Shown here piece after piece: positions 1-44,965 of a stretch of 46,943 nucleotides of DNA (position 1 is the first letter of the stretch; every line of letters begins with the position of its first letter). The notes below the pieces were generated by a model. It saw only the letters and a program-made list of their open reading frames with translations, had not been told where the DNA came from and did not search any database. Origin of the DNA: Opitutaceae bacterium. GTDB taxonomy: Bacteria > Verrucomicrobiota > Verrucomicrobiia > Opitutales > Opitutaceae. Position numbers and translations under genes: made by a program. The stretch spans positions 1 through 46,943 of the forward strand of contig JAUSID010000052.1 of NCBI GenBank assembly GCA_030648295.1. The letters run 5' to 3'.

Positions 1-1227
1 TCGCTGGCGAAACGCGATCACCACCGCGGCGAAAAGGAGCACGGACAATGCGATGCGCCAGAACAAGGCCATGCCGGCGAGCGAGGGCGCGACACCGACG
101 AAGCCGAGCCAGCCCTCCGGGGTGAGCAGCGGAATCCGCCAGCCGAAGTCATAGGAGCGCAGCAGCGTGAAACGTTCAACGAGGCCGACCACGCGGCCGA
201 GGAACAGCACGGCGCAGACCGCGAGCGGCGCCAGCACCACGCAAGTCCAGCGGCCGACGGCGGAGAGTTCGCGCCGACGCAGCGCCATCACGCCGACATA
301 CGCCGTCGCGGGGACGAGGCACGCGATGAGAATGAAATTGTAACTGCCGAGCACGAGCCAGTAGCCGATGGCCAGCACACCACCAAGCCGCCACGCCGCC
401 TTTCCACGCCGACGCAGCCGCCAGGCGCTGATGGCCGCCCACGTGATCAACGCGATCGCCATGGCCGCGAGCAACTGGCTCGGCGCCACCTGGCCCACGG
501 CGTACCACGTCACCGGGCTCATCCCGTAAAGAAGTGCGACGAGCACGGAACTCGGGCCGCGGAGGGCGAGGACGGAGCGGGCGATCCAGAACACGAGGGG
601 GACCGAGCACACCAGCACCATCACGGTCAAAATCGTGGCGAGCTCGTGCGGCGCACAATTCAGGATCGTGCCGTTCAGCGCCATCAGTGCCGCCGGCGTG
701 AAATGATTCAGTCGAATCCAGTAGTCGAAAAAATTGTCGGCGGACTGAACCTGCACGACCTCGGTCAAACCGAGAAATCCTTCGCGACTTCCGCGGCCGA
801 ACTCCATGAAGACCCGCGCACCGGCCGCGTAGTCCGCCGCGTCGCAGCTTCCCAGCGATATCGTCGTCAATCCACGCAAGCCAACCGCGAGCGGCAGGAG
901 CAGGAAAATCAGCGTGACCGTCGCGACCGCCCAGACCGCTGCGAACCGGGCGAGGTCGGCCCGCGCTTCGGAAAAGCGCTTGCGCCGACTCGCGGCGAGC
1001 AGAAGCCCAACGGGAAGGATGAAGCTGGCCCAGGCGTAGGTTTCCGTTCCGCGGAGACCCGACAGCGCGCCCACCCACACGGCCGCTGATTGCAGGGCGA
1101 GGCCGGCGGGCAGGATCAGGACCGGCCAGAAGCGATGCCACGGGCGCGGCATTGCGAGTACCGCCAAGCCCGCGCCCCAAAGTGCGATGTGCAATGCGAG
1201 AGCTGTCGCGACGAGAAAAAATACCAT
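1..1227 (-). CDS. Polytopic membrane protein, GT-C glycosyltransferase-like (3' end outside window)
   Basis: The gene runs off the left edge; about 409 residues are visible with no stop. The ATG at 1227 is the first start after an in-frame TAA 18 bases upstream. The translation has many hydrophobic helices (first residues MVFFLVATALALH) separated by short Arg-rich loops, as in multi-pass inner-membrane proteins. A loop after the early helices carries SCDAADYAAGARVFMEFG, an acidic lumenal-type loop like that of GT-C (PMT/ArnT-like) enzymes. It diverges from the secreted glycosidase at 1342, so 1228-1341 must hold both promoters. The GT-C assignment is inferred from topology and neighbours; membrane localisation is near certain. 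Confidence 0.72.
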   Translation of the reverse strand, partial: MVFFLVATALALHIALWGAGLAVLAMPRPWHRFWPVLILPAGLALQSAAVWVGALSGLRGTETYAWASFILPVGLLLAASRRKRFSEARADLARFAAVWAVATVTLIFLLLPLAVGLRGLTTISLGSCDAADYAAGARVFMEFGRGSREGFLGLTEVVQVQSADNFFDYWIRLNHFTPAALMALNGTILNCAPHELATILTVMVLVCSVPLVFWIARSVLALRGPSSVLVALLYGMSPVTWYAVGQVAPSQLLAAMAIALITWAAISAWRLRRRGKAAWRLGGVLAIGYWLVLGSYNFILIACLVPATAYVGVMALRRRELSAVGRWTCVVLAPLAVCAVLFLGRVVGLVERFTLLRSYDFGWRIPLLTPEGWLGFVGVAPSLAGMALFWRIALSVLLFAAVVIAFRQR

Positions 1228-1341: not shown

Positions 1342-3831
1342 ATGTACCATTCTGGGCCGTGCTTACTTGCCATTTCATTCTTATTTCTGTCGCCCGCGGC
1401 CTCCACCGTGGCGCAGGAAACGCGTTTGATCCTGGCGGACGAGAACGGCGCCGTTGCCGCGTTTAGTCCATCAGCGGAACAGGAAGGTCGCTGGTCCTGG
1501 ACCGAACTGACGGTTCCCGGCGCCGCCGAACCGCAAGCCATCTCCGTCCGCAACACTCCCATCGTCACCTCCGAGGGCGACGCCACGCTCATCCCGGAGT
1601 GGACGCTGGTTGAGCAGGACGGGGGCCGGCTGGTTTTCGAGCAGGACGCGCCCTCCGCCGGCGTGCGATTCCGCCGCGTGTTCTCATTCGGTCCGGCCAC
1701 GAACGTTTTTCGGATCGCAACGTGGGCGCGGGCGCTCGAGGGCACGCGGGTGCTGAAGCATGCGGGCATTCTCGATGTGCGCGTCCGAGGCGAGAACTTC
1801 CATGAAACCGGCGCGGCACCGGCGTCGTTCCCCCTCTTCGGCGACAATTTTTTCGTGGCCATCGAACACGTCTCGGGCACGTGCAACGCGGATGGCGGAC
1901 GCGTTTATCTCTGGCAAACGCCCCACGTTACCGTCGGCGAAGACTGGCAATTCGTCGCCAGCGCGGTGATTGGCTGGCCCGTGGCGACTGACTGCACCCT
2001 CACGTCGGGTGACCGTCGGACTCGCAACGCGTTCTTCCAGTACCTCAACACGATCCGGGTGAAACCGGCCGACCTCGAGTTGCACACGAACACCTGGTGG
2101 ACGCTGCCCGTGCCGTTTTCGGAATCCGACGTATTGAAGGACATCAACGCGCTGGCCATGGGATTTCGCGATCGCACCGGCATGTTCTTCGACTCGTTCG
2201 CGCTGGATCTGGGCTGGTCGGACAACCGCAGCATCTGGCGGGTCGATGGCAGACGATTCCCGAACGAGCTTCGCACGATCAATGAACGATTGAACGCGCT
2301 CGGCTCGCGGCTTGGCATCTGGGTTTCGCCCGGCAGCGGGTATGCGCCGGGCTTGGACAACACCTGGCTCGAATCCGCGGGCTACGAAGTCTCGCCTTTC
2401 CCTCTCGAGGATCTGCCGAAGGTCGCCTGCTTCGCGCTCGGCGGCCGCTACCAGCGGGAATTCAAGGAGAACCTGCTGTCGCTGGTGCGGACCTATGGCA
2501 TTCGCCACGTGAAGTTCGACTTCATGGCGCACACGTGCGCGATCGCGACTCACCCGCATCCCGCCGGCATCGAGTCCACGTACGCGATCGACGCGGGACT
2601 GGCAGATGTCCTCGACAGCCTCCGAGCGGTGAATCCGAACATCGTGCTCGAGCCACTGTGCACGGGTTATCCGCCGAGCCCTTTCTGGACCACGAAAACG
2701 CCGTATGTCCTCGGCCCCTACGGCGACGACGTTCCCTACGGGCGCGTCGCGAGCCCGGAGTGGATGGAGTCGCTGATCACGGCGCGGGACATCGCCTATC
2801 GGATGGATAGCGAGCGCTGGGTCATGCCGTCGCAGGCGATGGAGACGATCGACATCGTGGTGCAGAGCCCGGGCGATTTCGAGAACCTCGCGGTGATGGC
2901 AATCGGCCGCGGCCGCTGGTTCATTTCGACCTACCTCAAGCCGGAGCTGATGCCGGCGAAGAACTGGGATTTCCTCGCCGCCCTGGTCCGGTGGGCACGC
3001 GCGAACAAACAGTATCTCGGCAACGCCGAGATGATTGGCGGGCAGCCGGAAGCGCGCGAGGCGTACGGCTACATGTTTCACCAGCACGAGAAGGACATCT
3101 TCTGCCTCCGTAATCCGTGGATGGAGGAACGTGAAATCGAGCTGCCCGGGTGCGCGAGCCAGCGCGAGCCACGCGAACTGCGGATGATCTATCCGCGACG
3201 CGAGACGGTCGCCCGGCTCGAGCCCGATGGCACACCGGCGCGGATCGTCCTCGCGCCGTACGAAACGGTCATGCTGGAAACCATTCCGGCGGGCGAGGAG
3301 ACCATCGTCCATTCAAACCCCGAATACAAAGCCATCGTCAGCGAGAACGCGCCGAACGTCGCGGTTCGGGAAGGGAACGACGAGGCGCGCATTCCGGGCC
3401 GTGTGTCGTACCGATGGGCCGGCAGCATCACCGTGCCTGAAATCACCGGCGGTGAACTTTATCTCCTGGTGGAAGGCAACCCCGCGATTAGCGGCTCGAG
3501 TTCGACCATGGGGATCGACGGCAGGGCGCAGGCGTTGAAGACGTCGGCGAGCGCCGGCCAGTTCGGTGCCGCCGCCAGCCCGTCCCCCGAAAACTGGAAA
3601 TGGTTTTCCGCCCCGATTACGCCCGGTATCCACAACGTGGATCTGACCGTGGATGTGCCGCTCGGCAGCTGCTCCATCGGGGTCTTCCTGCGCGGCTCCA
3701 CCACCGGCAGCAGCGAGCCCGCCCCGGCCGACGAGGCGGCCTTGCCGTTGTATCGTCCGGGTCGGCGCGGTTGGTCCCAAGCCGTGCAGCCGCTGCGGTT
3801 GTATCCCGAGCCGCCGCCGGAAGAGCCTTGA
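1342..3831 (+). CDS. Secreted GH36-like (clan GH-D) glycosidase, copy A
   Basis: 829 residues. An N-terminal signal peptide ends near AASTVAQ, so the protein is exported. A beta-sandwich-like N-terminal region (about 30-250) precedes a TIM barrel (about 250-590) with clan GH-D features: DSFALDLGW, a W..D...FPNEL stretch, GIWVSPGSGY, the nucleophile-type motif HVKFDFM (Asp393), and VLEPLCTGYPPSP followed by GDDVPYG (Asp462/Asp463) where GH36 enzymes have the acid/base Ser-Asp. The remaining roughly 240 residues look all-beta. Such enzymes usually act on alpha-galactosides, but the substrate here is unknown. It converges with the methyltransferase at 3868 (36 bases apart). A close paralog lies at 11189. 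No clear ribosome binding site precedes the ATG. Confidence 0.85.
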   Translation: MYHSGPCLLAISFLFLSPAASTVAQETRLILADENGAVAAFSPSAEQEGRWSWTELTVPGAAEPQAISVRNTPIVTSEGDATLIPEWTLVEQDGGRLVFEQDAPSAGVRFRRVFSFGPATNVFRIATWARALEGTRVLKHAGILDVRVRGENFHETGAAPASFPLFGDNFFVAIEHVSGTCNADGGRVYLWQTPHVTVGEDWQFVASAVIGWPVATDCTLTSGDRRTRNAFFQYLNTIRVKPADLELHTNTWWTLPVPFSESDVLKDINALAMGFRDRTGMFFDSFALDLGWSDNRSIWRVDGRRFPNELRTINERLNALGSRLGIWVSPGSGYAPGLDNTWLESAGYEVSPFPLEDLPKVACFALGGRYQREFKENLLSLVRTYGIRHVKFDFMAHTCAIATHPHPAGIESTYAIDAGLADVLDSLRAVNPNIVLEPLCTGYPPSPFWTTKTPYVLGPYGDDVPYGRVASPEWMESLITARDIAYRMDSERWVMPSQAMETIDIVVQSPGDFENLAVMAIGRGRWFISTYLKPELMPAKNWDFLAALVRWARANKQYLGNAEMIGGQPEAREAYGYMFHQHEKDIFCLRNPWMEEREIELPGCASQREPRELRMIYPRRETVARLEPDGTPARIVLAPYETVMLETIPAGEETIVHSNPEYKAIVSENAPNVAVREGNDEARIPGRVSYRWAGSITVPEITGGELYLLVEGNPAISGSSSTMGIDGRAQALKTSASAGQFGAAASPSPENWKWFSAPITPGIHNVDLTVDVPLGSCSIGVFLRGSTTGSSEPAPADEAALPLYRPGRRGWSQAVQPLRLYPEPPPEEP

Positions 3832-3867
3832 TGATTCACGTCCGGCGCGCGACGGCCGCGGAGGGCC

Positions 3868-4605
3868 CTATGGTTTTCGCGCGACCGCAAACACCGAGGT
3901 GCCCCAGGCCCACTGGCCGCCACCGCGCATCCACGCGTGTTCGATGGTCATCAGTCCACGGAACATCGCTTCCACGGCCGCGGGGTATGGTTTGACGTCG
4001 CTCGTCTCGCCATTCGTACGGAAAATTTTGCGTTTCGCCCAAATCAGCGGAAACGGCAGCGCGTTCCAATGGGTCAGCCGCTCGATGGAGAAACCGGCGC
4101 CGTGCAGCAACGTCGCGATTTCCGGCCGTGTGTAGCGGTGTTTGGTGTGCACCGCGTCGTCATGATACGACCACATCCACATATACGCGGGGACATTCAG
4201 CACGAGGAGCCCGCCCGGCCGCAGCACGCGCATAAACTCGGCGGCCGCGTCGGCTGCATTCTCGACCTGGCAAACCACGTCGACGGACACCACCGCGTCG
4301 AAACGCTCCGCCTCGAAGGGCAGCGCGGTGACCGAGGCTTCACGGATTTCCACCGCGGCACCGAACCGTTTTTGCGCCAGCTCGCACGCCAGCGGCATGA
4401 GATCGATGCCGGTCCAGCTTGCCGGCAGCGGCCATTTTCGGGCCCGGTCGATCAAGCCGCCGGTGCCGCACCCGGCATCGAGGATCTCGGCTCCGCTTTT
4501 CAGCCCGGCACGCTCGAGTTCCCGGCCGACGTGTGCATGCAGCGAGTGGAAATACCACATCCGATCCTCCACCTCCGACATCTTGATGTATTCGTTCCGG
4601 TCCAT
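3868..4605 (-). CDS. Class I SAM-dependent methyltransferase
   Basis: 245 residues with a complete Rossmann methyltransferase core. Motif I is ILDAGCGTGG (about 41-50), an acidic GIDLMP follows, then the FDAVVSVDVVCQVE strand and LRPGGLLVLNVPAY (the post-III strand). The family (Methyltransf_11/25) transfers a methyl group from S-adenosylmethionine; here the acceptor is probably a sugar or lipid-linked glycan intermediate, judging only from the neighbours. It lies 56 bases downstream of the membrane protein 4662-6857 on the same strand, suggesting co-transcription. A frameshifted relic of a second copy lies at 13722-13850 in the equivalent place of the duplicated unit. Confidence 0.9.
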   Translation of the reverse strand: MDRNEYIKMSEVEDRMWYFHSLHAHVGRELERAGLKSGAEILDAGCGTGGLIDRARKWPLPASWTGIDLMPLACELAQKRFGAAVEIREASVTALPFEAERFDAVVSVDVVCQVENAADAAAEFMRVLRPGGLLVLNVPAYMWMWSYHDDAVHTKHRYTRPEIATLLHGAGFSIERLTHWNALPFPLIWAKRKIFRTNGETSDVKPYPAAVEAMFRGLMTIEHAWMRGGGQWAWGTSVFAVARKP

Positions 4606-4661
4606 GTGCAGCCGGTTACACCGCCAGCTTCGCCCGCGGATTTCAACTTCGATTCCGCCCC

Positions 4662-6857
4662 CTACTCCGTGCGATCAATCGGGTCGGCTCCGCGTGCCAC
4701 TTTGATTGAGAAATCCTGCAAGCCAATCGTGCGCAACTGATACCGTCCGGTACCAGTGCGGACCGGCGGTGCGCTCGAACGGAGCGCAAGGACATTAATG
4801 CCGGGCGGCAGCAGCAGTTCCGGAATTTCCAGCACCACCGGCGAAGCGCCAACGCGGATGCGCCGGATACCGCGACCATCGAGTTCGAGTGACAGATCGC
4901 GGTCGGTGACTCCCACCAGCGTCAATTTGACCGCGGCCGTAATCGGATGGTCGTAGGGATTGAAGTAGGACAGCATCGCATCGTCATTTGCCCACCGGAT
5001 GCCGTCGCTGCCGCGGGGGTGCCACCCCTGGCCAAAGGTCAGCGCGCGGGCCAGCGGAAGCACGGGTTTGGCGCGGGGATTCAGGAGAATCACGACTTGG
5101 TTTCCGAGTGTCCCTTGGATGCGGCGGGTATAGCCGAGCTCGGTCAGGTCCTTCAGGATCCGCTGCGCCCGATCTTCATAGCCTCTGCGGTTCAAATAGA
5201 GCGCCGCAAACCCGTAGGCTTCCAGCCGTCGAACCAGGGTTGCCGTCGAAACACCCTCGAGGTCGCGCTGCCAGCGACTCCGGGCCCGGGACTTCGCCGC
5301 GCCATAACTGAACCGCAGCGTGTGCGTGGTCAGGAACGGCCGGAAAAGCTCGTAATCGGCGAGCGCCTGCGGTGGGAGCACCTCCGGGAAACCGATCACC
5401 GGCAGCTGGAAAACCATGGCTCCGGCGGGCAACGCCGCCTCGAGGTCTCGTCCGAGCTTAAGATCGGACGTGGCCGTGGACACAATTTCATCCTGCTCGG
5501 GCGGACTCAGGGCGCGCGGAACCTGATCGAGCACCCCGATGCCCGCGATGGCGAACGCCGCGGCGACGCGAATCCAGGCGGGCCATCGGGCCGTGAGCCG
5601 CGACATCCGGATGACGACAAACGTCAGGACGATTGCAGAAATGAAAATGGCGACGCGGTTGGTGGCCCGGAAAATTTGAAACCCCGCGAGGAGCGCGAGC
5701 AGGTTGGTGAGCCCGCCGATTGTCGCGTACACCAGGAGCCAGCCCACCGACAACGCCTGCCCCGGCGGCGGCTGGCGGCGAAGAATTCGATATACCGTCA
5801 GTGCGGCGAGCCAGATCAACGCAATGATGCCGAAGATGCCGAGATACGGCAGGTAAGCTTCACCCCGCCAAATCGACCAGCGCACGTAACGATGTCCCAG
5901 GAACGCCAGTTCCTCCCACCGGTGAAAGGTCGGCGGGATGAACATCTCGATGGGTTTCAGCGCGAAGATTTCGGTCCCCGCATAATTCCGTGCAACGACT
6001 GGCGCGCCGGCCGGTTCCTGCACGTGCACCCACACTTCGAGATGGCTGCAAATGAACGTGAGTCCCGCGAGCGCGATGGCGGTGAGGCCAATCGCCAGGT
6101 TCACTTTTCGCCGTTGAGCGAACCATTGTGCGATCACCGCCCAACCCATGAGCTGGAGCCAGAAAAACAGGTTGTACGGATTGCTGACACCCAGTGCGAC
6201 CGCGGCGCCGAGGCAAACCGCCGCGCCTGGGCTGCGCCACTCGAGCCGGCGGCTTCCCGCCACCAGCCACACCGACAGCAGTGCAAGCGGCACGGTCCAG
6301 GTGAACGCAATCGAGAAATGTCCCAGCCCTCGGTGAAACGTATGGTAGGTAAACGCAAATAGCAGCGCGCCGGTCCATGCCCACTCCCAACGGCAGCGCA
6401 GCCACCGGGCGACGAAATAGAACGCCAGTGCCGCGCTGATGGCGGCGAGCAGCATGACGACATTCGCGGCCGCGAACAATCCCACGACATGCGCAAGGCC
6501 GCCGGCGAGCAGCAACAGTGGTTTATCCGGCGTGGGAAAACCATTCCAGTGCGCGCCGAACGGGGCGCCGAGTCGCTCGATCACTTTCGGGGTAAACGGC
6601 AGGATGTCGCCTTCCGCCGCAGCCTTCATCTGCGCGAGGATTTCCGGCGCGTCGCCGCGATATTCGATCGGAACCGACCAGCTCGCGGCGGTCCAGCGAT
6701 GGTAATGCGCACACCAGATCAAGGTGACGACAAGTACGAGCAGGCCGGTGCGCCACGGCCCAGCCGATGCAGCAAATGATGTTCTCAGGGGTGATCGCAC
6801 GCGCCGCTGGATTGGGTTTTTCTCCGGCGAAGAGCCTTTGAACGCCCGGCCGCTCAT
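4662..6857 (-). CDS. GT-C-like polytopic membrane protein, paralog 1
   Basis: 731 residues. A basic N-terminal tail leads into the first helix (about 37-50), then a periplasmic-type loop with EYRGDAPEIL (Asp69) and GAPFGAHWNGFPTPDKP. About ten further helices follow, and the last roughly 200 residues are soluble and end in a beta-rich domain. A D-containing first loop and C-terminal soluble domain are typical of GT-C and YfhO-like enzymes that transfer sugars from polyprenyl-phosphate donors; function is inferred. Paralogs lie at 6974-9226 and 13851-15959, the latter more similar by eye. It is between the other membrane protein (116 bases upstream) and the methyltransferase (56 bases downstream), so the three probably form one minus-strand operon. 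The start could be later in the tail. Confidence 0.83.
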   Translation of the reverse strand: MSGRAFKGSSPEKNPIQRRVRSPLRTSFAASAGPWRTGLLVLVVTLIWCAHYHRWTAASWSVPIEYRGDAPEILAQMKAAAEGDILPFTPKVIERLGAPFGAHWNGFPTPDKPLLLLAGGLAHVVGLFAAANVVMLLAAISAALAFYFVARWLRCRWEWAWTGALLFAFTYHTFHRGLGHFSIAFTWTVPLALLSVWLVAGSRRLEWRSPGAAVCLGAAVALGVSNPYNLFFWLQLMGWAVIAQWFAQRRKVNLAIGLTAIALAGLTFICSHLEVWVHVQEPAGAPVVARNYAGTEIFALKPIEMFIPPTFHRWEELAFLGHRYVRWSIWRGEAYLPYLGIFGIIALIWLAALTVYRILRRQPPPGQALSVGWLLVYATIGGLTNLLALLAGFQIFRATNRVAIFISAIVLTFVVIRMSRLTARWPAWIRVAAAFAIAGIGVLDQVPRALSPPEQDEIVSTATSDLKLGRDLEAALPAGAMVFQLPVIGFPEVLPPQALADYELFRPFLTTHTLRFSYGAAKSRARSRWQRDLEGVSTATLVRRLEAYGFAALYLNRRGYEDRAQRILKDLTELGYTRRIQGTLGNQVVILLNPRAKPVLPLARALTFGQGWHPRGSDGIRWANDDAMLSYFNPYDHPITAAVKLTLVGVTDRDLSLELDGRGIRRIRVGASPVVLEIPELLLPPGINVLALRSSAPPVRTGTGRYQLRTIGLQDFSIKVARGADPIDRTE

Positions 6858-6973
6858 GCGTGCAAGCCCGCAGTTTTCCGCCGCGATGAGGTTCCTATCC
6901 CGATCGGCAGGGTGGCTCCCGGCAGGCTTGGTCCGGGCCGCCGCGCTCGTGGGGCCGGACTCATCACGCGCAC

Positions 6974-9226
6974 CTAAAGACCAGCAACGCCACGCTTCCG
7001 TTCGGTCGGTTTGTGGGCGGCCGGCAAGCGGGCATCGTCGACCGAGATGTTTACCCGCGATTCCTTGAGCCCGAACGAACGAAGTTGATTCCGACCAGGG
7101 CCCTGCCGAATCGCGGGCGCCGGCGAATGAAGCGAAAACCGGTTCACGCCGGGGGCGAGCTTCACTCCCGGAATCACGATCGTCGACGGCGAAGTACCCA
7201 CCGGCATCACGTGCACAATCGCGTTCTCCAACTTGACCACGACCGTCCGCGGCGAGACGGCCGTGAGTGACAGCTGGATCTCGACCGGCACGGAGGTCGG
7301 ATAGGGATTAAAATAGGACAGCGCCGCGCCCTCGTAGGCCCAGCGTATTCCGTCATCGGGCTGGATGTGCCAGCCTCGCCCGATCGTCAGCGACTTTGCC
7401 ATCGGCGGCCGCGGCCTTTCCCCCGGATGAAGCATGACGACCATCTGGTGTCCGAGCGGACCCTCTAGTTGCCGCGTGTAGCCCAGTTGATTGAGTTCGC
7501 GAAGCAGGCTCTCGCCTCCGTCCTGGTAGCCGCGGCGGTTGAGGTAGAGCGCGGAGAATCCATATTCCTCGAGCTGCGTGACCATCTCACGTGCGGAGTG
7601 CCCCTCGAGTTCCCGCTGCCATCGGCTGCGCGCGCGGTTCTTCGCCGCCCCATAACTGAACCGCAGTGTCTCGGTCGCGAGATACGGGCGGAAATGCTCG
7701 TAGTCGTTCATCAAATGCGGCGTGGCAACCTCGGGGAAACCCAGCACCGGCAGCTGGAAAACCATCGCGTGCGGCGGCAGCGCCGCCTCGAGCTTTTTCC
7801 CGAACTCGCGATCCGCACGTACCATTTTCCCCAGCGTGTCCACCTTGAGCGCGTCTTCAGGGCGCGGCAGCTGTTCGAAAACGCCGATGCCGGCAATGAG
7901 CGCCGCAACGCCGAATCGCACCCAGCGCGGCCAGCCGCCGGAGAGACGGGACAGCCGCGTAACGAGGAAAAAAAGCACGATGGCCGAAACGAAAATCGCC
8001 GCGCGATTGCTGGCCCGGAAGACCTGAAACCCCGCAAACAAAGCGAGGATGTTCGTCACTCCGCCGATCGACGCGTAGGCGATGATCCAGCCCACGGACA
8101 GGGCCTGGCCTGGCAGCGCCCGGCGATCGATGATCCGACGAACGGTGGCGACGACAAGCCACACGAAGCCCGCGATCCCTGCCAGCCCAAGGTAGGGAAG
8201 GAAAATCTCGCCGCGCCAGCCCGACCAGCGGGTGTAGCGATCGCCGAAAAACGCGAGCCAGTCCCAATGATGGAACGACGGCGGGATGAACATCTCGACC
8301 GGTTTCAGCGCGTACATTTCAGTGCCGGCGTAATTACGCGCCAGGAGCGGTAGCGCGCCCGTGTCCTCCACGTACAGCCAGGCCTCGGCCTGCACCACCC
8401 CGAATCCCGCGATCGCGACGAGGATGGCGACGATTCCGATCTGCACGTTGGCACGACGCCGCGCTCCGAACCATTGCAGCACCACGGCCCAACCCATGAG
8501 CTGCAGCCAGAAGAAGAGATTGTACGGATTTGAGACGCCGAGCGCCGCGGCGGCCACAAGGCAGACGATTGCGCCGGGCCGGTGCCAATCCAGCCGCCGG
8601 CTTCCGGCCACCAGCCACACCGCGAGCAGACCGAGCGGCACCGTCCACGTGAATACCAGCGAGAAATGGGACAAACCCCGGTGCACGGTGTGATACGTGT
8701 ATGCGAACAGCAGCGCGCCGGCTGCGGCCCACTCCCACCGGCAGCGCAGCCAGCGGGCGGTGAAAAAAAAGGCGAGCGCAGACGTGACCTGCGCCAGCAG
8801 CAGCCCGATATTCGCCGCCGCATAGAGCCCGACGACGTGCACCAAGGCCCCGAGCGCGAGCATGAGCGGCTTATCCGGTGTCGGATACGCATTCCAGTAC
8901 GCGCCGAACGGCGCCCCGAGCCGTTCGATCACCTGCGGGCGCAGCGGCAGAATGTCGCCTTCCGAGGCCGCCTTCAACCGCGCCAGCGTTTCGTGCGCGT
9001 CGATGTAGTAGTCGGTCGGGACGTGCCAGCTCTCGAGCGTCCAGCGCTCGTAATGCGCCACCCAGATCAGGGCGACGGCACATGCCAGCAGCCCGACCTG
9101 CCATGGCGCCGCCGAAAAACGAGAAAGGATTCGCCGCAGGCTTGCCAAAAGGTGTGGGGATTGGAATCGGGGGATCACTGGTAAACTCCTCGTCCGGCCG
9201 CAGGCGCAAGCCGGGTTCCCTGACAT
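6974..9226 (-). CDS. GT-C-like polytopic membrane protein, paralog 2
   Basis: About 750 residues from the ATG at 9226. An in-frame ATG at 9352 is rejected because it would overlap the divergent GT4 start at 9351 and add an Arg-rich stretch. The architecture matches paralog 1: N-terminal tail, helix, loop with DYYIDAHETLARLK, GAPFGAYWNAYPTPDKP, many helices, the LVAGSRRLDW cytosolic loop, and a C-terminal soluble domain. It is the most divergent of the three (DYYID against EYRGD in the first loop), so it probably stems from an older duplication. It heads the minus-strand run 6974, 4662, 3868. Its upstream leader (about 9150-9235) resembles that upstream of paralog 3 (16059-16140). Sugar-transfer function is inferred. 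Confidence 0.8.
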   Translation of the reverse strand: MSGNPACACGRTRSLPVIPRFQSPHLLASLRRILSRFSAAPWQVGLLACAVALIWVAHYERWTLESWHVPTDYYIDAHETLARLKAASEGDILPLRPQVIERLGAPFGAYWNAYPTPDKPLMLALGALVHVVGLYAAANIGLLLAQVTSALAFFFTARWLRCRWEWAAAGALLFAYTYHTVHRGLSHFSLVFTWTVPLGLLAVWLVAGSRRLDWHRPGAIVCLVAAAALGVSNPYNLFFWLQLMGWAVVLQWFGARRRANVQIGIVAILVAIAGFGVVQAEAWLYVEDTGALPLLARNYAGTEMYALKPVEMFIPPSFHHWDWLAFFGDRYTRWSGWRGEIFLPYLGLAGIAGFVWLVVATVRRIIDRRALPGQALSVGWIIAYASIGGVTNILALFAGFQVFRASNRAAIFVSAIVLFFLVTRLSRLSGGWPRWVRFGVAALIAGIGVFEQLPRPEDALKVDTLGKMVRADREFGKKLEAALPPHAMVFQLPVLGFPEVATPHLMNDYEHFRPYLATETLRFSYGAAKNRARSRWQRELEGHSAREMVTQLEEYGFSALYLNRRGYQDGGESLLRELNQLGYTRQLEGPLGHQMVVMLHPGERPRPPMAKSLTIGRGWHIQPDDGIRWAYEGAALSYFNPYPTSVPVEIQLSLTAVSPRTVVVKLENAIVHVMPVGTSPSTIVIPGVKLAPGVNRFSLHSPAPAIRQGPGRNQLRSFGLKESRVNISVDDARLPAAHKPTERKRGVAGL

Positions 9227-9350
9227 TTTGGAAAGTTGCGCAGCCAATGAATGTCGTAAAGCTGCAAATTCGCCGCCTGTAGCAACATTGCGGTTACGCG
9301 CACAAAGTTTTTGCCAAGATCGACCGCGCAGCCTTCCCTCGGCCGCGACC

Positions 9351-10994
9351 ATGCGACCCAGCCTCCGCTCGATGCCCGCCGGCGGCGCCTTTTCCCGGCG
9401 GTTCTCATCCTACCGCGGGCTGTTCTTCGACGAGTTCGATCTGAACTCGGCGTGGATTCGGGAGCGAGCGGTCGTGCGGCTGCCCTTGTTCGCGGGAACG
9501 CGGACGCTCGTGCTGCGGGGCGAATTTCGGGTTCATCCCGACGTGCGTGGCGTGGAAACGGCACCGCCCGGATTGCGCATCGTGATGAACGGACGCGACG
9601 TGGCCCGGCTTGCCCCGGGCACACCCGGCCCCTGGGAAGTTCGGGTGGCGCGGCCGGATGGGGACGAGGCCACGCTCGAGCTCGCGCCCACGGGCACGAA
9701 TCTCACGAACATGCTGGCCTGGCTCGGCCGGGTGACGGGGCTCGGCCCGTGGCAGCGGTTTCGCGCCCAGAACAAGAACCGACAGCTCCGCGTGACGAGC
9801 ATCACCACGGAGACGGACGAGATGATTTTCGATTTTTCACGGCGAGATGCCCCCTACTCCGCCGATTACGCACGACGTCACGTGAAGCTGGGGATGAACA
9901 TCGTCGGCTTCCTTACCGCCGAACTCGGTGTGGGTGAATCCGCGCGCTGTATGGTGCGGGCGGCGGACGCGGCCGGAATTTCCGCGGCACTCGTGCAACT
10001 GAAGCTCCACTGCAAGAACCGGCTCGGCGACCAAACGTATGCCGCACGTCTGCAGGACGACAATCCGCACGGGGTGAACGTGGTTCACGTCGATCCGCCC
10101 GCGTCGCGCGACATCGATCACCATCACGGCGAAGCGTTTCGCGCCGGAAAATACAACATCGGCTATTTCGCGTGGGAGCTGCCCGAGTTCCCCGATGCGT
10201 GGGTGCCGAGCCTGGACTATTACGACGAAATCTGGAGCCCGAGCGATTTCACGACCGCGGCCATCGCCATGAAATCGCCCATGCCCGTGCTCACTATGCC
10301 GCACGCGATCGGGTTTGCCGCACCGGCAGGGACGAAGTCGCAGTTGCGCGCACGATTCCGGCTGCCGGCCGAGGCCTTTCTTTACCTGGCGCTCTTCGAC
10401 CTGAATTCATACTCGGCGCGAAAGAATCCGCGCGCGGCGATCGATGCATTTCGCCGGTCCGGTCTCGCCGGCAAGGGCGCTGCACTCGTGATCAAGGTGC
10501 AAAATGTTGCGGGCAACGAGGCGGACTTCGCCGCCCTCCAGTCGAGCGTCGAGGATTTGGCCGGCACCGCACTTATCACCGACACGTTGTCGCGCGCCGA
10601 CATTTACGCGCTCGAATCGGCCTGCGATGCCTTCGTGTCGCTTCACCGTTCGGAGGGCTTTGGACTCGCGGTGGCGGAAAGCATGCTTCTCGGCAAGCCG
10701 GTCATTGCAACGGATTGGTCCGCCACCGCCGAATACGTGACCCCGGAAAATGGCTGCCCGGTGCGGGCGCGACTCGTGACGCTCGAGCAAAACCACGGCC
10801 CGTATGCGAAGGGCTCGACCTGGGCCGAGCCGGATCCCGCGCACGCAGCCGAACACATGCGGCGGCTTTTCAATGACCGGGCGCTGGCGGAGAAGCTCGG
10901 CGCCGCGGCCCGCGCAACGATTCAAACGCGTTTCGCGCCCGCCGTGATCGGCGCGCGTTATCGCCTCCGACTCGAAAGCATCGCGACGTTCTGA
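9351..10994 (+). CDS. GT4-family glycosyltransferase with N-terminal beta domain
   Basis: 547 residues from the ATG at 9351; an in-frame upstream ATG at 9228 adds a Cys/Arg-rich stretch overlapping the divergent gene. Residues about 1-165 form a beta-rich domain of unknown role. From about 170 comes a GT-B fold: the NIVGFLTAELGVGESAR start, NIGYFAWELPEFP, then the nucleotide-sugar domain with RSEGFGLAVAE giving the GT4 E-x7-E motif (Glu435/Glu443). GT4 enzymes are retaining and usually add mannose or glucose to lipid-linked or exported glycans; the cytosolic face is expected. It is divergent from the membrane proteins and followed by the second GH36-like gene. Its last 51 coding bases plus 3' flank recur at 16187-16256 as a relic. 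Confidence 0.9.
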   Translation: MRPSLRSMPAGGAFSRRFSSYRGLFFDEFDLNSAWIRERAVVRLPLFAGTRTLVLRGEFRVHPDVRGVETAPPGLRIVMNGRDVARLAPGTPGPWEVRVARPDGDEATLELAPTGTNLTNMLAWLGRVTGLGPWQRFRAQNKNRQLRVTSITTETDEMIFDFSRRDAPYSADYARRHVKLGMNIVGFLTAELGVGESARCMVRAADAAGISAALVQLKLHCKNRLGDQTYAARLQDDNPHGVNVVHVDPPASRDIDHHHGEAFRAGKYNIGYFAWELPEFPDAWVPSLDYYDEIWSPSDFTTAAIAMKSPMPVLTMPHAIGFAAPAGTKSQLRARFRLPAEAFLYLALFDLNSYSARKNPRAAIDAFRRSGLAGKGAALVIKVQNVAGNEADFAALQSSVEDLAGTALITDTLSRADIYALESACDAFVSLHRSEGFGLAVAESMLLGKPVIATDWSATAEYVTPENGCPVRARLVTLEQNHGPYAKGSTWAEPDPAHAAEHMRRLFNDRALAEKLGAAARATIQTRFAPAVIGARYRLRLESIATF

Positions 10995-11188
10995 CGGAGT
11001 GAAAGTAAAGGTGAGAGGGAAAGTGAAGGTGGGGCTGTGCAGCGCCAGCGCGACCAGTAAAAAAACATGAGTCCGGCCAGCGATGCTTATGACCGCCGTG
11101 CGGGTGCAAATAAATACCCCTACTGGACGCGGGCGGTGGCCGCAGTGGGGAAACCTTGGCGGGCGCAGCACGTCACTTCCGAGGACTC

Positions 11189-13693
11189 ATGCCACACCGA
11201 TCGCCGTTTCTCCGGACGGCCACATATTTTCTTCTTGCCTCCGCACTGCACCTGGACGCCGACGAGCCGCGGCTCGCGCTCACGAGCGAGAGCGGAGCCG
11301 TCGCCGTCTTCACCCCATCCGAGGAGGTTCCGGATCAGTGGACCTGGACGGAATTGACCGTTCCCGGCGCGCTGGAACCGCGAAGCGTCTCGGTCCGGAA
11401 AAGCCCCATCGTCACCTCGCGGGGCGAGGACATGCTTTCGCCGGACTGGTCGTTGACGGCTCAGGATGCGAGCCGGCTGGTGTTCGAGCAGGACGCGCCA
11501 TCCGCCGGGGTGCGGGTTCGACGCGTGTTCACGTTTGGCGCCGCGCCGAACACGATTCGCGCCGCCACCTGGGTACGCGCAATCGAAAGGACGGTCGTGC
11601 TGGAACTCGCGGGCCTGCTGGATTTGCGCGTTCCCGGCGACTCGTTCCGGGAAACCGGCGAGGCTCCGACGTCGTTCCCGCTTTTCAGTGAAAACTTCTT
11701 TGCCGGGCTCGAACACGTCTCCGGTCGGAGTTATGCGGACGGGGAGCGAATCTACCTCTGGCAGGCGCCCTACGCCACGGTCGGCGAGGACTGGCAGTTC
11801 ATCGCGACCGCGATCGTGGGCTGGCCGACCGCCAGCGACTGCAACCTCGTGCCGGAGGACCGCCGGGTGCGGGCGGCATTTCTCCAGTATCTGGATACGA
11901 TTCGCGTCCGGCCGGGGGACTTCGAGCTGCACACCAACACGTGGTGGACATTGCCCGTACCGTTCTCCGAGGCCGACGTGCTGAAAGACATCAATGCGCT
12001 CGCCGCCGGCTTTGCGGATCGGACCGGCATGTTCTTCGACTCGTTCGCGCTGGATCTGGGCTGGTCGGACCCGCGCAGCATCTGGCGGGTGGACGCGAAT
12101 AATTTCCCGAACGAGTTTCGGACGATCAACCAACGCCTGGCGGGTCTCGGCACCGGCCTCGGGCTCTGGGTGTCCCCCGGCAGCGGGTATCCACCTGGCT
12201 TGGACAATCAGTGGCTCCAGGGCGCCGGCTACGAGGTCATGCCCTTCCCGTATGTCAACGACCATCTCAGCATCGTTGCCTGCTTTGCCCTGGGCGGCCG
12301 ATATCAGCGCGAGTTCAAGGAGAATCTGCTGTCGCTCGTCAACCGGTACGGAATCCGGCATGTGAAGCTCGATTACATGCCTGAAGTTTGCGACGTCCCG
12401 ACGCACGGACATCCGGTCGGCATGGAGTCTGTTCACGCCATCCAGGCCGGACTGGCGGATGTCATGGACAGCCTGCGTGACGCCAATCCGAACATTGTGC
12501 TCGAGCCGTTGTGCATGGGCTATCCGCCCAGCCCCTGGTGGCTGGCCAAAACGCCGTACGTCCTCGGGCCCTTCGGCGACGACGTGCCGTACGGCCGCGT
12601 GCCCAGCCCGGAATGGATGGAGTCGCTGATCAGCGCGCGGGACATCGCCTACCGTCGGGATCGCGACTACTGGATCATGCCGACGGAAGCGCTCGAGACG
12701 ATCGATATCGTCGTGCAAAGTCCCGGCCAGTTCGAGAACCTGGCCGTGATGGCAATCGGCCGCGGACGCTGGTTCATCTCGACCTATCTCCGGCCCGCAC
12801 TGATGACGCCGCAGAACTGGGATTTCCTGGCGGCGCTCGTGCGCTGGGCCCGCGCCAACAAGCAGTATCTTCGCGGGGCGGAAATGTTTGGCGGCAACCC
12901 GGAAGCCCAGGAAGCGTACGGCTACATGTTTCACAACCACAGCGCGGCGAAGGATGTTTATTGCGCGCGCAATCCCTGGATCGAGCAGCGCTCGCTCGAC
13001 CTCCCGCTTTGTGCGAGCACCACCGAGACCCGCATGCTGCGCATGATTTATCCGCGCCGCGAAGTGGTTGCCTTGCTGCCACCCGGTGCAGAACCGCCAT
13101 CGCTCGTGCTCGCCCCGTATGAGACCGTGATGCTGGAATTGGTCGCAGTGACGGGGGACCTCCCCACTGCCGTCTCCCACTCCCCCATCGATGCGGCCTT
13201 CGAGGCGAGGGAGCCGGTGTGGTCGGTGACACCGGCAAACGACGAGTTGCGCCTGCGCGGTGATCTTCGTTTCGCGTGGAATAGCATCGCGATCGTTCCC
13301 AAGATGGCGGCGGCGGAACTCTGTATCCTCGTGCAGGGAGAGCCGGCGGTCAGCGGAGCGCTCGCCAGCGTCGCCATCGATGATCGCGCCATTACTACCC
13401 GCACGGTCGGAAGCGCGGGGCAGTTTGGAGCGGCGGCCGAGCCGTCGCCGGAGAATTGGAAATGGTTCATCATTCCAGTTGCGGCCGGCACCAGGAAGAT
13501 CGACATCGATGTGACCGTCCCGGTGGACAGCGCGTCGGTCGGCATTTTCCTGCGCGGCTCCGTCGACGTGCAAAACGACCCCGCGCCCGAGGAAGCAGCG
13601 GTGTTTCCAACCTATCGTCCCGGCTCGCGCGGGTGGTCCCAGGCATTGCTACCGTTGACGGCAAGTCCGGAGATGACGGCCGAAGCGCCGTAA
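11189..13693 (+). CDS. Secreted GH36-like (clan GH-D) glycosidase, copy B
   Basis: 834 residues from the ATG at 11189, which has GAGG at 11181-11184 and starts directly with a signal peptide (MPHRSPFLRTATYFLLASA); the in-frame ATG at 11156 is unlikely. It is co-linear with copy A over its whole length: the same barrel motifs, HVKLDYM (Asp395 as putative nucleophile) and GDDVPYG (Asp464/Asp465). Insertions relative to A are small, for example before IVACFALGG. Both copies keep all putative catalytic residues, so both are probably active, perhaps with different substrates. It follows the GT4 gene by 194 bases and converges on the methyltransferase fossil and paralog 3, repeating the layout around copy A. 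Confidence 0.85.
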   Translation: MPHRSPFLRTATYFLLASALHLDADEPRLALTSESGAVAVFTPSEEVPDQWTWTELTVPGALEPRSVSVRKSPIVTSRGEDMLSPDWSLTAQDASRLVFEQDAPSAGVRVRRVFTFGAAPNTIRAATWVRAIERTVVLELAGLLDLRVPGDSFRETGEAPTSFPLFSENFFAGLEHVSGRSYADGERIYLWQAPYATVGEDWQFIATAIVGWPTASDCNLVPEDRRVRAAFLQYLDTIRVRPGDFELHTNTWWTLPVPFSEADVLKDINALAAGFADRTGMFFDSFALDLGWSDPRSIWRVDANNFPNEFRTINQRLAGLGTGLGLWVSPGSGYPPGLDNQWLQGAGYEVMPFPYVNDHLSIVACFALGGRYQREFKENLLSLVNRYGIRHVKLDYMPEVCDVPTHGHPVGMESVHAIQAGLADVMDSLRDANPNIVLEPLCMGYPPSPWWLAKTPYVLGPFGDDVPYGRVPSPEWMESLISARDIAYRRDRDYWIMPTEALETIDIVVQSPGQFENLAVMAIGRGRWFISTYLRPALMTPQNWDFLAALVRWARANKQYLRGAEMFGGNPEAQEAYGYMFHNHSAAKDVYCARNPWIEQRSLDLPLCASTTETRMLRMIYPRREVVALLPPGAEPPSLVLAPYETVMLELVAVTGDLPTAVSHSPIDAAFEAREPVWSVTPANDELRLRGDLRFAWNSIAIVPKMAAAELCILVQGEPAVSGALASVAIDDRAITTRTVGSAGQFGAAAEPSPENWKWFIIPVAAGTRKIDIDVTVPVDSASVGIFLRGSVDVQNDPAPEEAAVFPTYRPGSRGWSQALLPLTASPEMTAEAP

Positions 13694-13721
13694 AGCGGCG
13701 GGATTTTGTCGCCAAACCCGT

Positions 13722-13850
13722 CGCGGTGATACCAGCCGCCCGCGCCCGGATCGTCGATCTGGCAGAGCACGTCAGCGAGGCCACCGCGTCAAATGCGCCG
13801 TCGGCAAAGGGGGGCGCCGTGACCGAGCTTCGTGAATATCGACGGCGCCT
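13722..13850 (-). pseudogene. Fossil of a second methyltransferase gene
   Basis: On the minus strand this stretch aligns with the middle of the methyltransferase at 3868-4605 (bases about 4262-4362). Pieces in shifting frames read VDIHEA, SVTAPPFADGAFDAV and ADVLCQIDDPG, against EIREA, SVTALPFEAERFDAV and VDVVCQVEN in the intact gene. Two single-base deletions relative to that gene break the frame, and both ends are missing. It sits exactly where the duplicated unit should carry the methyltransferase: convergent with the glycosidase and downstream of the membrane protein. Confidence 0.7.
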
Positions 13851-15959
13851 TCACTTCGAGGTTTTGTCGGGCCGGTCGACCTTCAGGAAGAGGTCGTGCA
13901 AACCGAAGGTCCGCAACTGGTATTGGCCGGTGCCGAGCCGCCTTCCCGGCTGGTTCGACCGCAACTCGAAGACGTTCACGCCCGGCTCGAGGTCCAGACG
14001 CGGCACCCGCAGCGGAATCGGAACTTTACCGGCGTGTATCCGGCCCAACTCACGACCGTCGCGTTCAATCCAGACGTCGCGCTCACTGACCGCCTCGACA
14101 ATCAGTTCGAGTGATGCCGGCAAGCGTCGGTCGTAGGGGTTGAAATACGAGAGGATGGCATCGGAATTGGCCCACTTGACGCCTTCGAGGATCCGGGTGT
14201 GCCAGCCGAGTCCGTAGGTTAGCGTGCGGGCCAGCGGAAAAGTCGGGCGGGCCGCCGGGTTTAGCAGCACGACGGTCTGGTGACCGCGCGCGCTTTCGAT
14301 CCGTTGGTGGTAGCCCAATGCGGCCAGCTCGCCCAGCAAACCTTCGGCACGATCCTTGAAGGCCTTTCGATTCACATACACGGCGGAAAACCCGTATTCC
14401 TCCAGCCGGCGAACCAGGGTCGCAGCCGGCACCCGTTCGATGTCGCGCTGCCATCGGCTGCGCGCACGAGATTTCGCCGCACCATAGCTAAACCGCAGCG
14501 TCTCCGTGACCAGATAGGGCCGGAACAATTCGTAATCCGCCATCAGGTTCGGTGCCGAGACTTCGGGAAAGCCCATGATCGGCAATTGAAAAATCGCTGC
14601 CCCCGGGGGCAGCGCCGCCTCGAGTTCGCGGCCGAGGTTAAGATCCGATTTCGCATCCGCCTCGATCTCCGCCACGACGTCTGGCGGCTCGGGCCGGGGC
14701 ACCTGATCGAGAACGCCGATTCCCGCGACGGCAAACGCGAGGCCTCCCCGCAGCCATGCCGGCCAACGGGCCGTGAGCCGCGACATCCGGACGATCAGGA
14801 ATACAATCGCGATCGCAGAGATGAAGATCGCGACCCGGTTGGTCGCGCGGAAAATCTGGAATCCGGCGAGGAGGGCGAGGACGTTGGTCACGCCGCCGAT
14901 CGACGAATAGGCAATCAGCCAGCCGATCGACAACGCATGCCCCGGCAGGGGGCGGCGAAGAAAAATCCGACGCGCGGTCACCAACCCGAGCCAGAGCAGC
15001 GCGGCAATCCCGGCCAGCCCGACATAGGGCAGAAACGCCTCCCCCCGCCACGCCGACCAGCGTTCATACCGGTGGCCCATGAACGCGAGCACATCCGAAC
15101 GATGGAATCGCGGCGGGATGAACATCTCGATCGGCTTCAGCGCATATATCTCCGTGCCGGCATAGTTGCGCATTACGAGCGGTGCACCTTCAGGTTCTTG
15201 CACGAACACCCAAACCTCGAGATGGCTGGCAATGAACGCCACGCCCGCGATTAGAACGGTGGCAACGCCGATCGTGAGATTCGCCCGGCGGCGCCGGCTG
15301 AACCACTGCGCGATCAACGCGAATCCCATCAACTGGACCCAGAACAGCAGATTGTATGGGTTGCTGACTCCGACGGCCACCGCCGATCCCAAACATACCG
15401 CCGCACCGCTGCTCCGCCACTCGAGCCGCCGGCTTTGGGCGACGAGCCAGACCGCGAGCAGCGCAAGCGGCACCGTCCACGTGAATGCGATGGAAAAGTG
15501 ACCGAGACCGCGGTGAAACGTGTGGTAGGTGAACGCATACAGCAGTGCACCGGCCCAGGCCCACTCCCAGCGGCAACGGAGCCAGCGGGCCACGAAATAG
15601 AACGCGAGCGCCGAACTGATCGAGCCGAGCAACATCACAATGTTGGCCGCGGCGAACAAGCCGACCAGGTGCGTCAGCCCTCCCACCAGCAGGAGCAGCG
15701 GTTTGTCCGGCGTCGGAAACGCATTCCAATGCGCTCCGAACGGCGCACCGAGTCGTTCGATGATTTTCGGACGAAACGGCCACATATCGCCGTCAGCCGC
15801 GGCCCGCATTTGCGCGAGAATCTCGGGCGCGTCGCCGCGATACTCGAGCGGAACCGACCAACTCGCGATGCTCCAGCGGTCATAATGCGCACACCATGTC
15901 AGCGTCACAGCGACGATCAGCAGACCCACGTGCCAGACCCCGGCCCACTCTGGCGACAT
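13851..15959 (-). CDS. GT-C-like polytopic membrane protein, paralog 3
   Basis: 702 residues from the ATG at 15959, which is preceded by AGGTGG six bases upstream. The open frame continues to 16340, but that extension has no good start and runs through a GT4 relic. The body closely resembles paralog 1 (EYRGDAPEILAQM, GAPFGAHWNAFPTPDKP, then about ten helices and a beta-rich C-terminal domain). Its upstream leader instead resembles that of paralog 2: where paralog 2 has its ATG, this copy reads ATTG, so the original start may have been lost and replaced by the internal one. This suggests a recombinant between the two paralogs. Role as for paralog 1, inferred. Confidence 0.8.
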   Translation of the reverse strand: MSPEWAGVWHVGLLIVAVTLTWCAHYDRWSIASWSVPLEYRGDAPEILAQMRAAADGDMWPFRPKIIERLGAPFGAHWNAFPTPDKPLLLLVGGLTHLVGLFAAANIVMLLGSISSALAFYFVARWLRCRWEWAWAGALLYAFTYHTFHRGLGHFSIAFTWTVPLALLAVWLVAQSRRLEWRSSGAAVCLGSAVAVGVSNPYNLLFWVQLMGFALIAQWFSRRRRANLTIGVATVLIAGVAFIASHLEVWVFVQEPEGAPLVMRNYAGTEIYALKPIEMFIPPRFHRSDVLAFMGHRYERWSAWRGEAFLPYVGLAGIAALLWLGLVTARRIFLRRPLPGHALSIGWLIAYSSIGGVTNVLALLAGFQIFRATNRVAIFISAIAIVFLIVRMSRLTARWPAWLRGGLAFAVAGIGVLDQVPRPEPPDVVAEIEADAKSDLNLGRELEAALPPGAAIFQLPIMGFPEVSAPNLMADYELFRPYLVTETLRFSYGAAKSRARSRWQRDIERVPAATLVRRLEEYGFSAVYVNRKAFKDRAEGLLGELAALGYHQRIESARGHQTVVLLNPAARPTFPLARTLTYGLGWHTRILEGVKWANSDAILSYFNPYDRRLPASLELIVEAVSERDVWIERDGRELGRIHAGKVPIPLRVPRLDLEPGVNVFELRSNQPGRRLGTGQYQLRTFGLHDLFLKVDRPDKTSK

Positions 15960-16058
15960 GGGGAGCCACCTGGCCGGGAGTTTGACCGCGAGGACGGCGG
16001 CACGCCAATGCACAATCAGTGCCGTTGCAGTATTTCGCAGCAGAAGGCCCAAGTGCTG

Positions 16059-16140
16059 GTGGGGATTGGTTCGGGAGCCGGGTAGTGGTAAGCCGTTGGC
16101 TGGAGCCGGGGGCAAGCGCCCGATACTGACAATCTTGTAA
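16059..16140 (-). repeat. Leader sequence shared with paralog 2 upstream region
   Basis: This stretch upstream of paralog 3 resembles 9154-9235 at the start of paralog 2. Both contain the string GTGGGGATTGG (plus strand, 16059-16069 and 9154-9164), then a GGTAA box, a CAAGC box and a TGACA box in the same order. The resemblance was judged by eye, with several indels. Confidence 0.5.
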
Positions 16141-16186
16141 GAAAATGCCCCCCGCTGGCCAGGCCGCGCGTCTTGCTCCCCGACGC

Positions 16187-16256
16187 GTGATCGGCGCGCG
16201 CTATCGCCGGCGACTCGAAAGCATCGCGACGTTCTGAAGGAGCGAAAGTGAAGGTG
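16187..16256 (+). pseudogene. Relic of GT4 gene 3' end
   Basis: These 70 bases match 10944-11013 without gaps at 64 of 70 positions. The match covers the last 17 codons of the GT4 gene including its TGA stop, plus 19 bases of its 3' flank. Upstream of 16187 no further GT4 sequence is visible. It marks the far end of a second, mostly deleted copy of the five-gene unit. Confidence 0.78.
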
Positions 16257-16273
16257 CCGCTCCAGGCAGGGGT

Positions 16274-16422
16274 TAACCGCGAATGAACGCAAATGAACGC
16301 GAATGTTGCGGACTCGGGCCTGGAGCGGCCGCGCGAGCAATCCAGGACGACGCGCGGGTTAAACGCACTCCGCAGCGAAATGCGCCGTATTATTCGCGTC
16401 CATTCGCGTTCATTCGCGGTTA
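16274..16422. repeat. 149-base element with 31-base inverted termini built of decamers
   Basis: The left arm 16274-16304 and the right arm 16392-16422 are inverted copies matching at 29 of 31 positions. Each arm is a run of ten-base units of the type CGCGAATGAA. The 87-base interior codes for nothing recognisable. A related single arm of decamers (CGCGAATACA, CGCCAATTCA, CGCGAATATA) lies at about 31191-31222. Confidence 0.75.
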
Positions 16423-16445
16423 CTGCCCTTGTCCGGAATTCGTGG

Positions 16446-18995: not shown

Positions 18996-19104
18996 TCCGC
19001 CGGCCGTGCTCCTCGGCAACCGGGGATCGAACCAGGACGCTGCGGGCGCTTGTATTCCAATTTTCTCACGGGCAGTTTGCGGCATCACAGAACGCAAGCG
19101 CACC

Positions 19105-31496: not shown

Positions 31497-32194
31497 ACGT
31501 GGCTCCCGCCGCGAGCGGCGTGAATGAGGGGTCGAAAAACACGGCGGCGACTGTCCTTGTCAACGCTGCTTTTGCCCCTGTGGCCGGAAATTAGCCGCCG
31601 CCCGCGTATTATGGCGTTTCGCCGCCGAAATCGAGGACGCCGTCACTGCCTGCGCCGGCGCGGACGACTTGGCCGCGCGGTGTTCCACGGCGCGCTCAAC
31701 TCTCCCGCAGCATCAGCCAAGGATTGCTCCGCGCTCCTGGCGCGGTTGAACTCGTTTCTCTCCAGCATGTCGCCCGAAGCTGCCGCACGCGAAAAAATCG
31801 ACGCACTCCTCGTCGCGGCAGGCTGGGCGATCCAGGACTACAAGGCTTTCAATCCCGCTGCCGCCCGCGGCATCGCACTCCGGGAAGTCCCGCTCGATTC
31901 CGGCCGTTGCGATTATCTCCTCCTCGTCGATCGCATTCCTCTCGGCGTGATCGAGGCCAAGAAGGAAGGCACTACGCTCTCCACCGTTTCCGACCAATCC
32001 AGTCACTACGGCGAAAACCTCCCCGATTTCCTCGCGAATCTTCTGCCCGGCACGAAAAAAATTCCTTTCGCCTACGAATCCACCGGGGTCGAAACCCTCT
32101 TCCGCGACGAACGCGACCCGCATCCCCGCTCACGTCGCGTCTTCGCGTTTCACCGGCCGGAGACCTTGCGCGAGTGGCTCGCGGAAGGATCTCA

Positions 32195-44852: not shown

Positions 44853-44872
44853 CCCGTCGGACCTTCATATTT

Positions 44873-44924: not shown

Positions 44925-44965
44925 GTACGCGCAATGACACTGTAAATAGTAACCCACCCCACCCC

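Follow-up and report, generated by a model that had tools for sequence, protein, structure and literature searches.

Gene organization of the locus

The window analyzed here is the whole of contig C89, 46,943 nucleotides from the genome of an Opitutaceae bacterium (9.1 Mb in 294 contigs, with 4.02% contamination). Its left part carries a glycan locus in which a block of genes occurs twice, the second time in decayed form. The contig starts inside a membrane protein gene (GTC_left, 1..1227, minus strand), an open frame truncated by the contig end, which has homologues in relatives and forms the conserved left flank. The first unit opens with GH_A (1342..3831, plus strand), which codes for a GH36-like glycosidase whose start resembles a signal peptide by eye. 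It is followed by the intact methyltransferase gene MT (3868..4605, minus strand), of the class I S-adenosylmethionine (SAM)-dependent type (Methyltransf_11 E=1.1e-20), and by MP1 (4662..6857, minus strand), whose product is a multi-pass membrane protein that ends in a carbohydrate-binding-like domain. A second membrane protein gene, MP2 (6974..9352, minus strand; its start may be near 9226), separates MP1 from the gene of the GT4 glycosyltransferase (9351..10994, plus strand; Glycos_transf_1 E=6.8e-14), whose protein has one match at E<=0.001 in its own genome (G000), namely itself. The 3′ tail of GT4 and its trailer lie at 10927..11013 on the plus strand.

The second unit repeats this order and orientation, as the preliminary description of this DNA had stated. 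It consists of GH_B (11156..13693, plus strand; likely start 11189), which codes for a second GH36-like glycosidase, a methyltransferase fossil (MT′, 13722..13847, minus strand), the intact membrane protein gene MP3 (13851..16340, minus strand; its start may be near 15959) and a relic of the GT4 3′ end with its trailer (GT4′, 16167..16256, plus strand). A stretch of leader DNA, to which we assign no strand, is common to 9130..9235 and 16034..16141. To the right of the second unit lie the conserved right flank genes MT24 (16446..17384, minus strand; Methyltransf_24 E=6.9e-12) and GTC_d (17391..19289, minus strand), the latter coding for a membrane protein.

The two units are co-linear copies

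The preliminary description had proposed a decayed tandem duplication and a self-alignment of the window. When the window was compared with itself by blastn, co-linear similarity extended beyond the two glycosidase genes (1384-3827 against 11228-13689, 69.5% nucleotide identity) to MT and its fossil (4251-4357 against 13743-13847, 72%), to MP1 and MP3 (4709-6765 against 13889-15945, 70.4%) and to the GT4 tail and its relic (10927-11013 against 16167-16256, 84%). MP1 and MP2 were 67% identical in this comparison, and MP2 and MP3 65%. A tblastx self-comparison yielded 2716 rows, mainly noise among those listed, and was set aside. The similarity between the units keeps the same orientation throughout and includes non-coding sequence. 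The fossil had been put at about 130 bases, and a finer alignment placed it at 13722-13847; its length is 105-126 bases depending on the alignment. The piece at 13743-13850 scored 42, far above the maximum of 22.5 in 500 dinucleotide-preserving shuffles. Our recount of the GT4 relic also agreed with the earlier figure: 64/70 bases are identical in the gap-free last 70 bases, of which 48/51 match through the stop codon and 16/19 beyond it.

Phylogeny points in the same direction. The GH_A and GH_B proteins share 64% amino acid identity and are sisters in a tree of 8 sequences (support 100/99). The membrane protein tree, whose 40 rows are the three proteins of the window and one best match per locus from 37 loci, likewise joins MP1 and MP3 as sisters (100/99), so that in both families the copies are each other's nearest relatives. 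Thus, the co-linear blocks of one orientation and the sister trees together bear out the decayed tandem duplication.

MP2 behaves differently. It falls into a clade with the rows G131b, G133b and G054b (100/100), and these orthologues, in genomes G131, G133 and G054, stand at separate loci (L080, L081, L082) adjoining a homologue of the window gene at 21114-22658. This phylogeny identifies MP2 as an older paralogue, and therefore the duplicated unit comprises four genes, GH-MT-MP-GT4. Of the doubled five-gene module described earlier, the co-linear doubling stands and the number of genes does not.

A single conserved locus in relatives

We searched 252 genomes of the family with alignments of the window proteins. 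The membrane protein alignment found matches in 81/252 genomes at E<=1e-20 and the glycosidase alignment in 7/252 at E<=1e-60, the own genome included; GT4 matched in 181/252 genomes at E<=1e-30. The window genes were then mapped on 42 relative loci, mainly those with the best membrane protein, glycosidase or GT4 matches; some genomes contributed a second locus. The conserved order in relatives is GTC_left, MT, MP, GT4, MT24, GTC_d. A single MT-MP-GT4 set in the order and orientation of the window, with intervening genes allowed, occurs at the same place in 16/42 loci; at a 17th candidate locus (contig C477 of genome G155) MT is truncated by the contig end. Within the fetched stretches, GTC_left lies beyond MT at 15 of these 16 loci and MT24 beyond GT4 at 10. 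The order is not invariable: MT stands elsewhere in G037 and G182, and none is present at the locus in G141. Three genomes (G187, G128, G145) show part of the set only, within the fetched stretch, and the loci of G153, G144 and G136 are truncated by contig ends.

The relic lies on the MT24 side, where GT4 ends in relatives. From its stop codon to MT24 there are 208 bases, or 38 without a 170-base palindrome; in relatives, the matches to GT4 and MT24 stand 20-240 bases apart at eight loci and 0.7-4.8 kb apart at six others. Since GTC_left on one side and MT24 and GTC_d on the other flank both units from outside, the window is one copy of the conserved glycan locus with the GH-MT-MP-GT4 block doubled inside it. 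Among the relatives, only G155 and G153 (the latter as far as its contig reaches) include a glycosidase gene in the unit.

Parts of the duplication differ in apparent age

Identity at codon positions 1, 2 and 3 is 0.74, 0.79 and 0.51 for the glycosidase pair and 0.76, 0.83 and 0.46 for MP1 and MP3, a pattern which indicates that both pairs are under purifying selection. Fourfold-degenerate sites are 0.480 identical in the glycosidases, with 0.388 expected at saturation, and 0.439 in MP1 and MP3, with 0.363 expected. By this measure the silent sites between the copies are near saturation.

The GT4 end is far more alike than this background: 8/9 fourfold sites and 16/19 trailer bases are identical in tail and relic, 24/28 pooled. 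Fisher's test against 130/296 for MP1 and MP3 gives p=1.7e-5 and against 147/306 for the glycosidases p=1.1e-4, p values that are optimistic for a tail picked post hoc as the best match and with 28 informative sites. In 21 orthologues, three of them poorly aligned (G133, G182, G125), the trailer shares 1-8 of 19-20 bases with that of GT4 and 2-9 with that of the relic. As tail and non-coding trailer so far exceed the silent sites, either GT4 was homogenized while it still existed in two copies, or the two units came together later by way of a GT4 end that they already had in common; such a late join would give the same counts.

The methyltransferase fossil retains a coding-type slope. Its identity to MT by codon position is 38/44, 31/40 and 24/41 (positions 1 and 2 against 3, Fisher p=0.008), in an alignment that requires seven one-base gaps, and 23 live MT orthologues show a similar slope over the matching stretch, with medians of 0.84, 0.76 and 0.46. 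The retained slope suggests that most substitutions in the fossil arose while it was still coding, so that MT′ probably died late. For this comparison the GT4′ relic offers too few bases. The earlier statement that the second unit discarded its methyltransferase and GT4 is therefore right as to the outcome, as fossil and relic are all that remain, and needs the addition that MT′ was probably under coding constraint until late.

A probable tandem duplication followed by decay

We assign a probability of roughly 0.57 to an old tandem duplication of GH-MT-MP-GT4 inside the conserved locus with later decay of unit 2. Gene order, synteny and phylogeny are the observations behind this reading, and the order of events is our reconstruction from them. 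In the ancestral locus GTC_left-MT-MP-GT4-MT24-GTC_d, a GH36-like gene would have settled between GTC_left and MT, and the GH-MT-MP-GT4 block would then have been doubled in tandem. Both units may have been active for long, while identity between the glycosidases and between the membrane proteins fell to 64-68%, their silent sites came close to saturation and recombination kept the GT4 ends similar. The older paralogue MP2 would have been inserted between MP1 and GT4, and late loss of MT′ and GT4′ would have left two pairs of glycosidase and membrane protein with one common methyltransferase and one GT4.

Apart from the limits of the two age comparisons, several observations weigh against this history. 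An intact pair of units, for which the preliminary description had proposed to look in related genomes, was found at 0 of the 42 mapped loci. The order GH-MT-MP was seen only in the window; G155 and G153 have MT-GH-MP, and the remaining MT-MP-GT4 loci of relatives lack the glycosidase gene. Finally, in trees of membrane protein segments (21 of the 40 rows), support for MP1 and MP3 is 98/97 in columns 1-400 and falls to 67/75 in columns 400-708, where their grouping is still the best, and a quicker tree of the C-terminal segment places both nearest to G129 by path.

Paired genes in another genus and a possible allelic origin

Two genomes of the genus g26, G155 (contig C286) and G153, carry the glycosidase gene between MT and MP. 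Their glycosidases group with those of the window, and their membrane proteins group with the window and G129 (89/86, or 100/99 for a wider set of nine), apart from the membrane proteins of four other g26 genomes. For MT and GTC_left, both genomes fall with G031 and with G152, a member of their own genus, and so does G155 for GT4; the trees of GTC_left and GT4 are quick ones. Because glycosidase and membrane protein go with the window while MT, GTC_left and, in G155, GT4 go with their own genus, the trees suggest that the two genes moved together as a cassette among local flanks.

In G155 a second contig, C477, holds a different type of membrane protein and no glycosidase, compared with the glycosidase and MP1-type membrane protein of C286. 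Along GT4, agreement between the two contigs per 100 columns is 58-78 in the first five blocks and 83-89 in the four that follow; the remaining blocks give 99, 90, 97 and 99, and 87/87 in the last. Each of the two contigs has an exact overlap of 149 bases with the start of contig C600, which extends 2.8 kb beyond GT4. The three contigs (L087, L086 and L114 for C286, C477 and C600) probably represent two strains with one flank in a mixed bin, which is likelier than two copies in one genome. On C600, an open frame at L114 464-3295, TonB-dependent-receptor-like by eye, lies downstream of GT4 where many genomes have MT24.

These data bear on a different origin of the two units, in which two long-diverged GH-MT-MP-GT4 alleles were recently joined in tandem through an already shared GT4 end, so that the divergence of the glycosidases and membrane proteins predates the tandem. 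It would account for a GT4 tail more alike than the silent sites of glycosidases and membrane proteins allow. The agreement rising along GT4 and the overlap of both G155 contigs with C600 are what alleles on one flank would show, and the discordant groupings in G155 and G153 also fit. However, the two glycosidases and MP1 and MP3 are mutually nearest in the full-length trees, and no single-unit donor was found among the relatives. Moreover, a plain single crossover in the tail leaves one tail per allele, and the near-identity stays unexplained unless the tails were already alike. We consider this origin possible, at clearly less than even odds. A more tentative extension of it takes the membrane protein as a GT-C-like transferase and pairs it, as writer, with the GH36-like trimmer in a mobile cassette, swapped between genera of the family at a fixed glycan locus via recombination in GT4, with the window holding two stacked diverged alleles that share one GT4 and one methyltransferase. 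If so, one cell could make two versions of a surface glycan.

MP3 and the shared leader

According to the preliminary description, a five-gene unit was doubled and the two membrane proteins of unit 2 were then fused, MP3 having a body like MP1 and a leader like MP2. We regard this as very unlikely. In favor of it, the leader DNA of MP2 (9130-9235) does match that of MP3 (16034-16141) weakly, with 72/102 aligned bases identical and a score of 23, where the best of 500 block shuffles reached 19. But this match sits upstream of the MP3 body, outside it. Both body segments of MP3 group with MP1 (the second one weakly), MP2 keeps to its own clade in both and never joins MP3, and as an older paralogue it is no member of the doubled unit.

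The leader was also sought in 37 upstream regions, that of MP1 in the window included. Upstream of the three MP2 orthologues (G131, G133, G054) nothing exceeded the shuffles. Only G125 reached the preset mark, with the MP2 leader, and just above the maximum of their 60 shuffles were G133 and G006 for the MP2 leader and G131c for the MP3 leader. Since the leader did not turn up upstream of the three orthologues, the simpler reading is that it would be promoter DNA from the GT4 side, copied with the unit, and not part of a fused protein.

That two strains' sequences were joined at a short repeat during assembly, for which the number of contigs, the contamination and the assembly fork inside GT4 in G155 could be cited, is highly improbable, as tail and relic have at most 27 exact bases in common, unit 2 is worn at both MT′ and GT4′, whereas joining two intact strains would leave no such wear, and the locus has its outer flanks in syntenic position on either side, GTC_left as far as the contig reaches.

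Palindromic element and other genes

The palindrome between the relic and MT24 (16265..16434, no strand assigned) folds with z=-7.05 and is a dispersed element. Its arm pattern, with <=3 mismatches, has 336 matches in the own genome and 64 in G128; within the genus, four other genomes have 1-4 matches and 21/27 have none. It looks like a recently expanded repeat of the repetitive extragenic palindrome (REP) or miniature inverted-repeat transposable element (MITE) type. Elsewhere in the window, a restriction-type helicase gene (ResIII/HSDR_N) lies at 31524-33065, and a DUF1592/1588/1585 protein with weak cytochrome-type matches is encoded at 42927-46348, followed by a DUF1552 protein.

Predicted functions

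The Melibiase profile matches the glycosidases with 19.2 (GH_A, E=6.8e-4) and 20.6 bits, under the Pfam gathering cut-off of 27. Structure models were poor, with a mean predicted local distance difference test score (pLDDT) of 55 for the glycosidase and 47 for the membrane protein, so that fold matches serve as leads only. The top Foldseek matches of the low-confidence glycosidase model are GH36-type enzymes (rank 1 E=6.7e-13; template modeling (TM) score 0.17-0.2 for the first ranks). D393 and D462/D463, in HVKFD/HVILD and GDD stretches, are kept in 8/8 members of the family, so both glycosidases do retain their putative catalytic residues, as had been noted. From what is known of GH36, they would be the catalytic nucleophile and acid/base. 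The 18-20 kb stretches around the homologues in G023, G131, G133 and G130 contain neither MP nor GT4, and the ten neighbors scanned in G023 include an esterase-type and a GH88 protein. In an order-wide draw of 372 genomes only the own genome matched at E<=1e-60; the six known relatives with the glycosidase were absent from the draw, which thus left the family uncovered.

For the membrane proteins, Pfam gave no relevant family, and sequence searches of the Protein Data Bank (PDB) with MP and GT4 returned nothing useful. Helices are predicted in large number, and one Asp (D69 of MP1) is conserved, a candidate for the acidic residue that GT-C enzymes have in the first outer loop. The C-terminal domain of MP1 resembles CBM6/35/36 in the low-confidence model. 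On these predicted features, we infer that MP may be a GT-C-like glycosyltransferase. Because the neighbors include GT2, GT4 and Alg9-like glycosyltransferases, a methyltransferase and an aminotransferase, the locus probably makes a surface glycan. GT4 would extend a lipid-linked sugar at the inner face of the membrane and MP transfer a sugar at the outer face, with MT capping a sugar and the secreted glycosidase trimming the glycan; these biochemical roles are predictions.

The end state, two pairs of glycosidase and membrane protein plus MP2 with one common GT4 and one MT, makes a probable surface-glycan locus readable after its doubling: the glycosidase and membrane protein are kept twice, GT4 and the methyltransferase are shared, and the genes kept twice point to the parts that may set specificity. 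As the preliminary description supposed, the module may have been kept for a second substrate specificity. Through the pairing of the two genes, a membrane protein family that has no Pfam entry and a sub-threshold glycosidase gain a functional link that can be tested. More generally, relics of one duplication can differ in age, and here the age of the event cannot be read from its best-matching piece.

Comparison with known systems

GH36 alpha-galactosidases and alpha-galactosaminidases (clan GH-D) resemble the glycosidases of the window in the weak Melibiase match, the Foldseek ranks and the Asp residues in HVKFD/HVILD and GDD. In contrast to that family, the present proteins fall below the Pfam cut-off and have no sequence match in PDB at E 0.01; an activity of this kind is a prediction. 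When tandem duplicates evolve in concert through gene conversion, one end of the block can likewise become far more alike than the rest; here, however, the likeness is confined to a 90-base relic, in which direction and tract are unreadable. A further parallel, in layout, is given by the variable O-antigen and capsule loci of bacteria, which also have conserved flanking glycosyltransferases and exchangeable inner genes, and here too the trees of MP and its neighbors are discordant. The present locus differs from them in that a GH36-like gene seems to travel with the membrane protein gene and that the locus is doubled in tandem.

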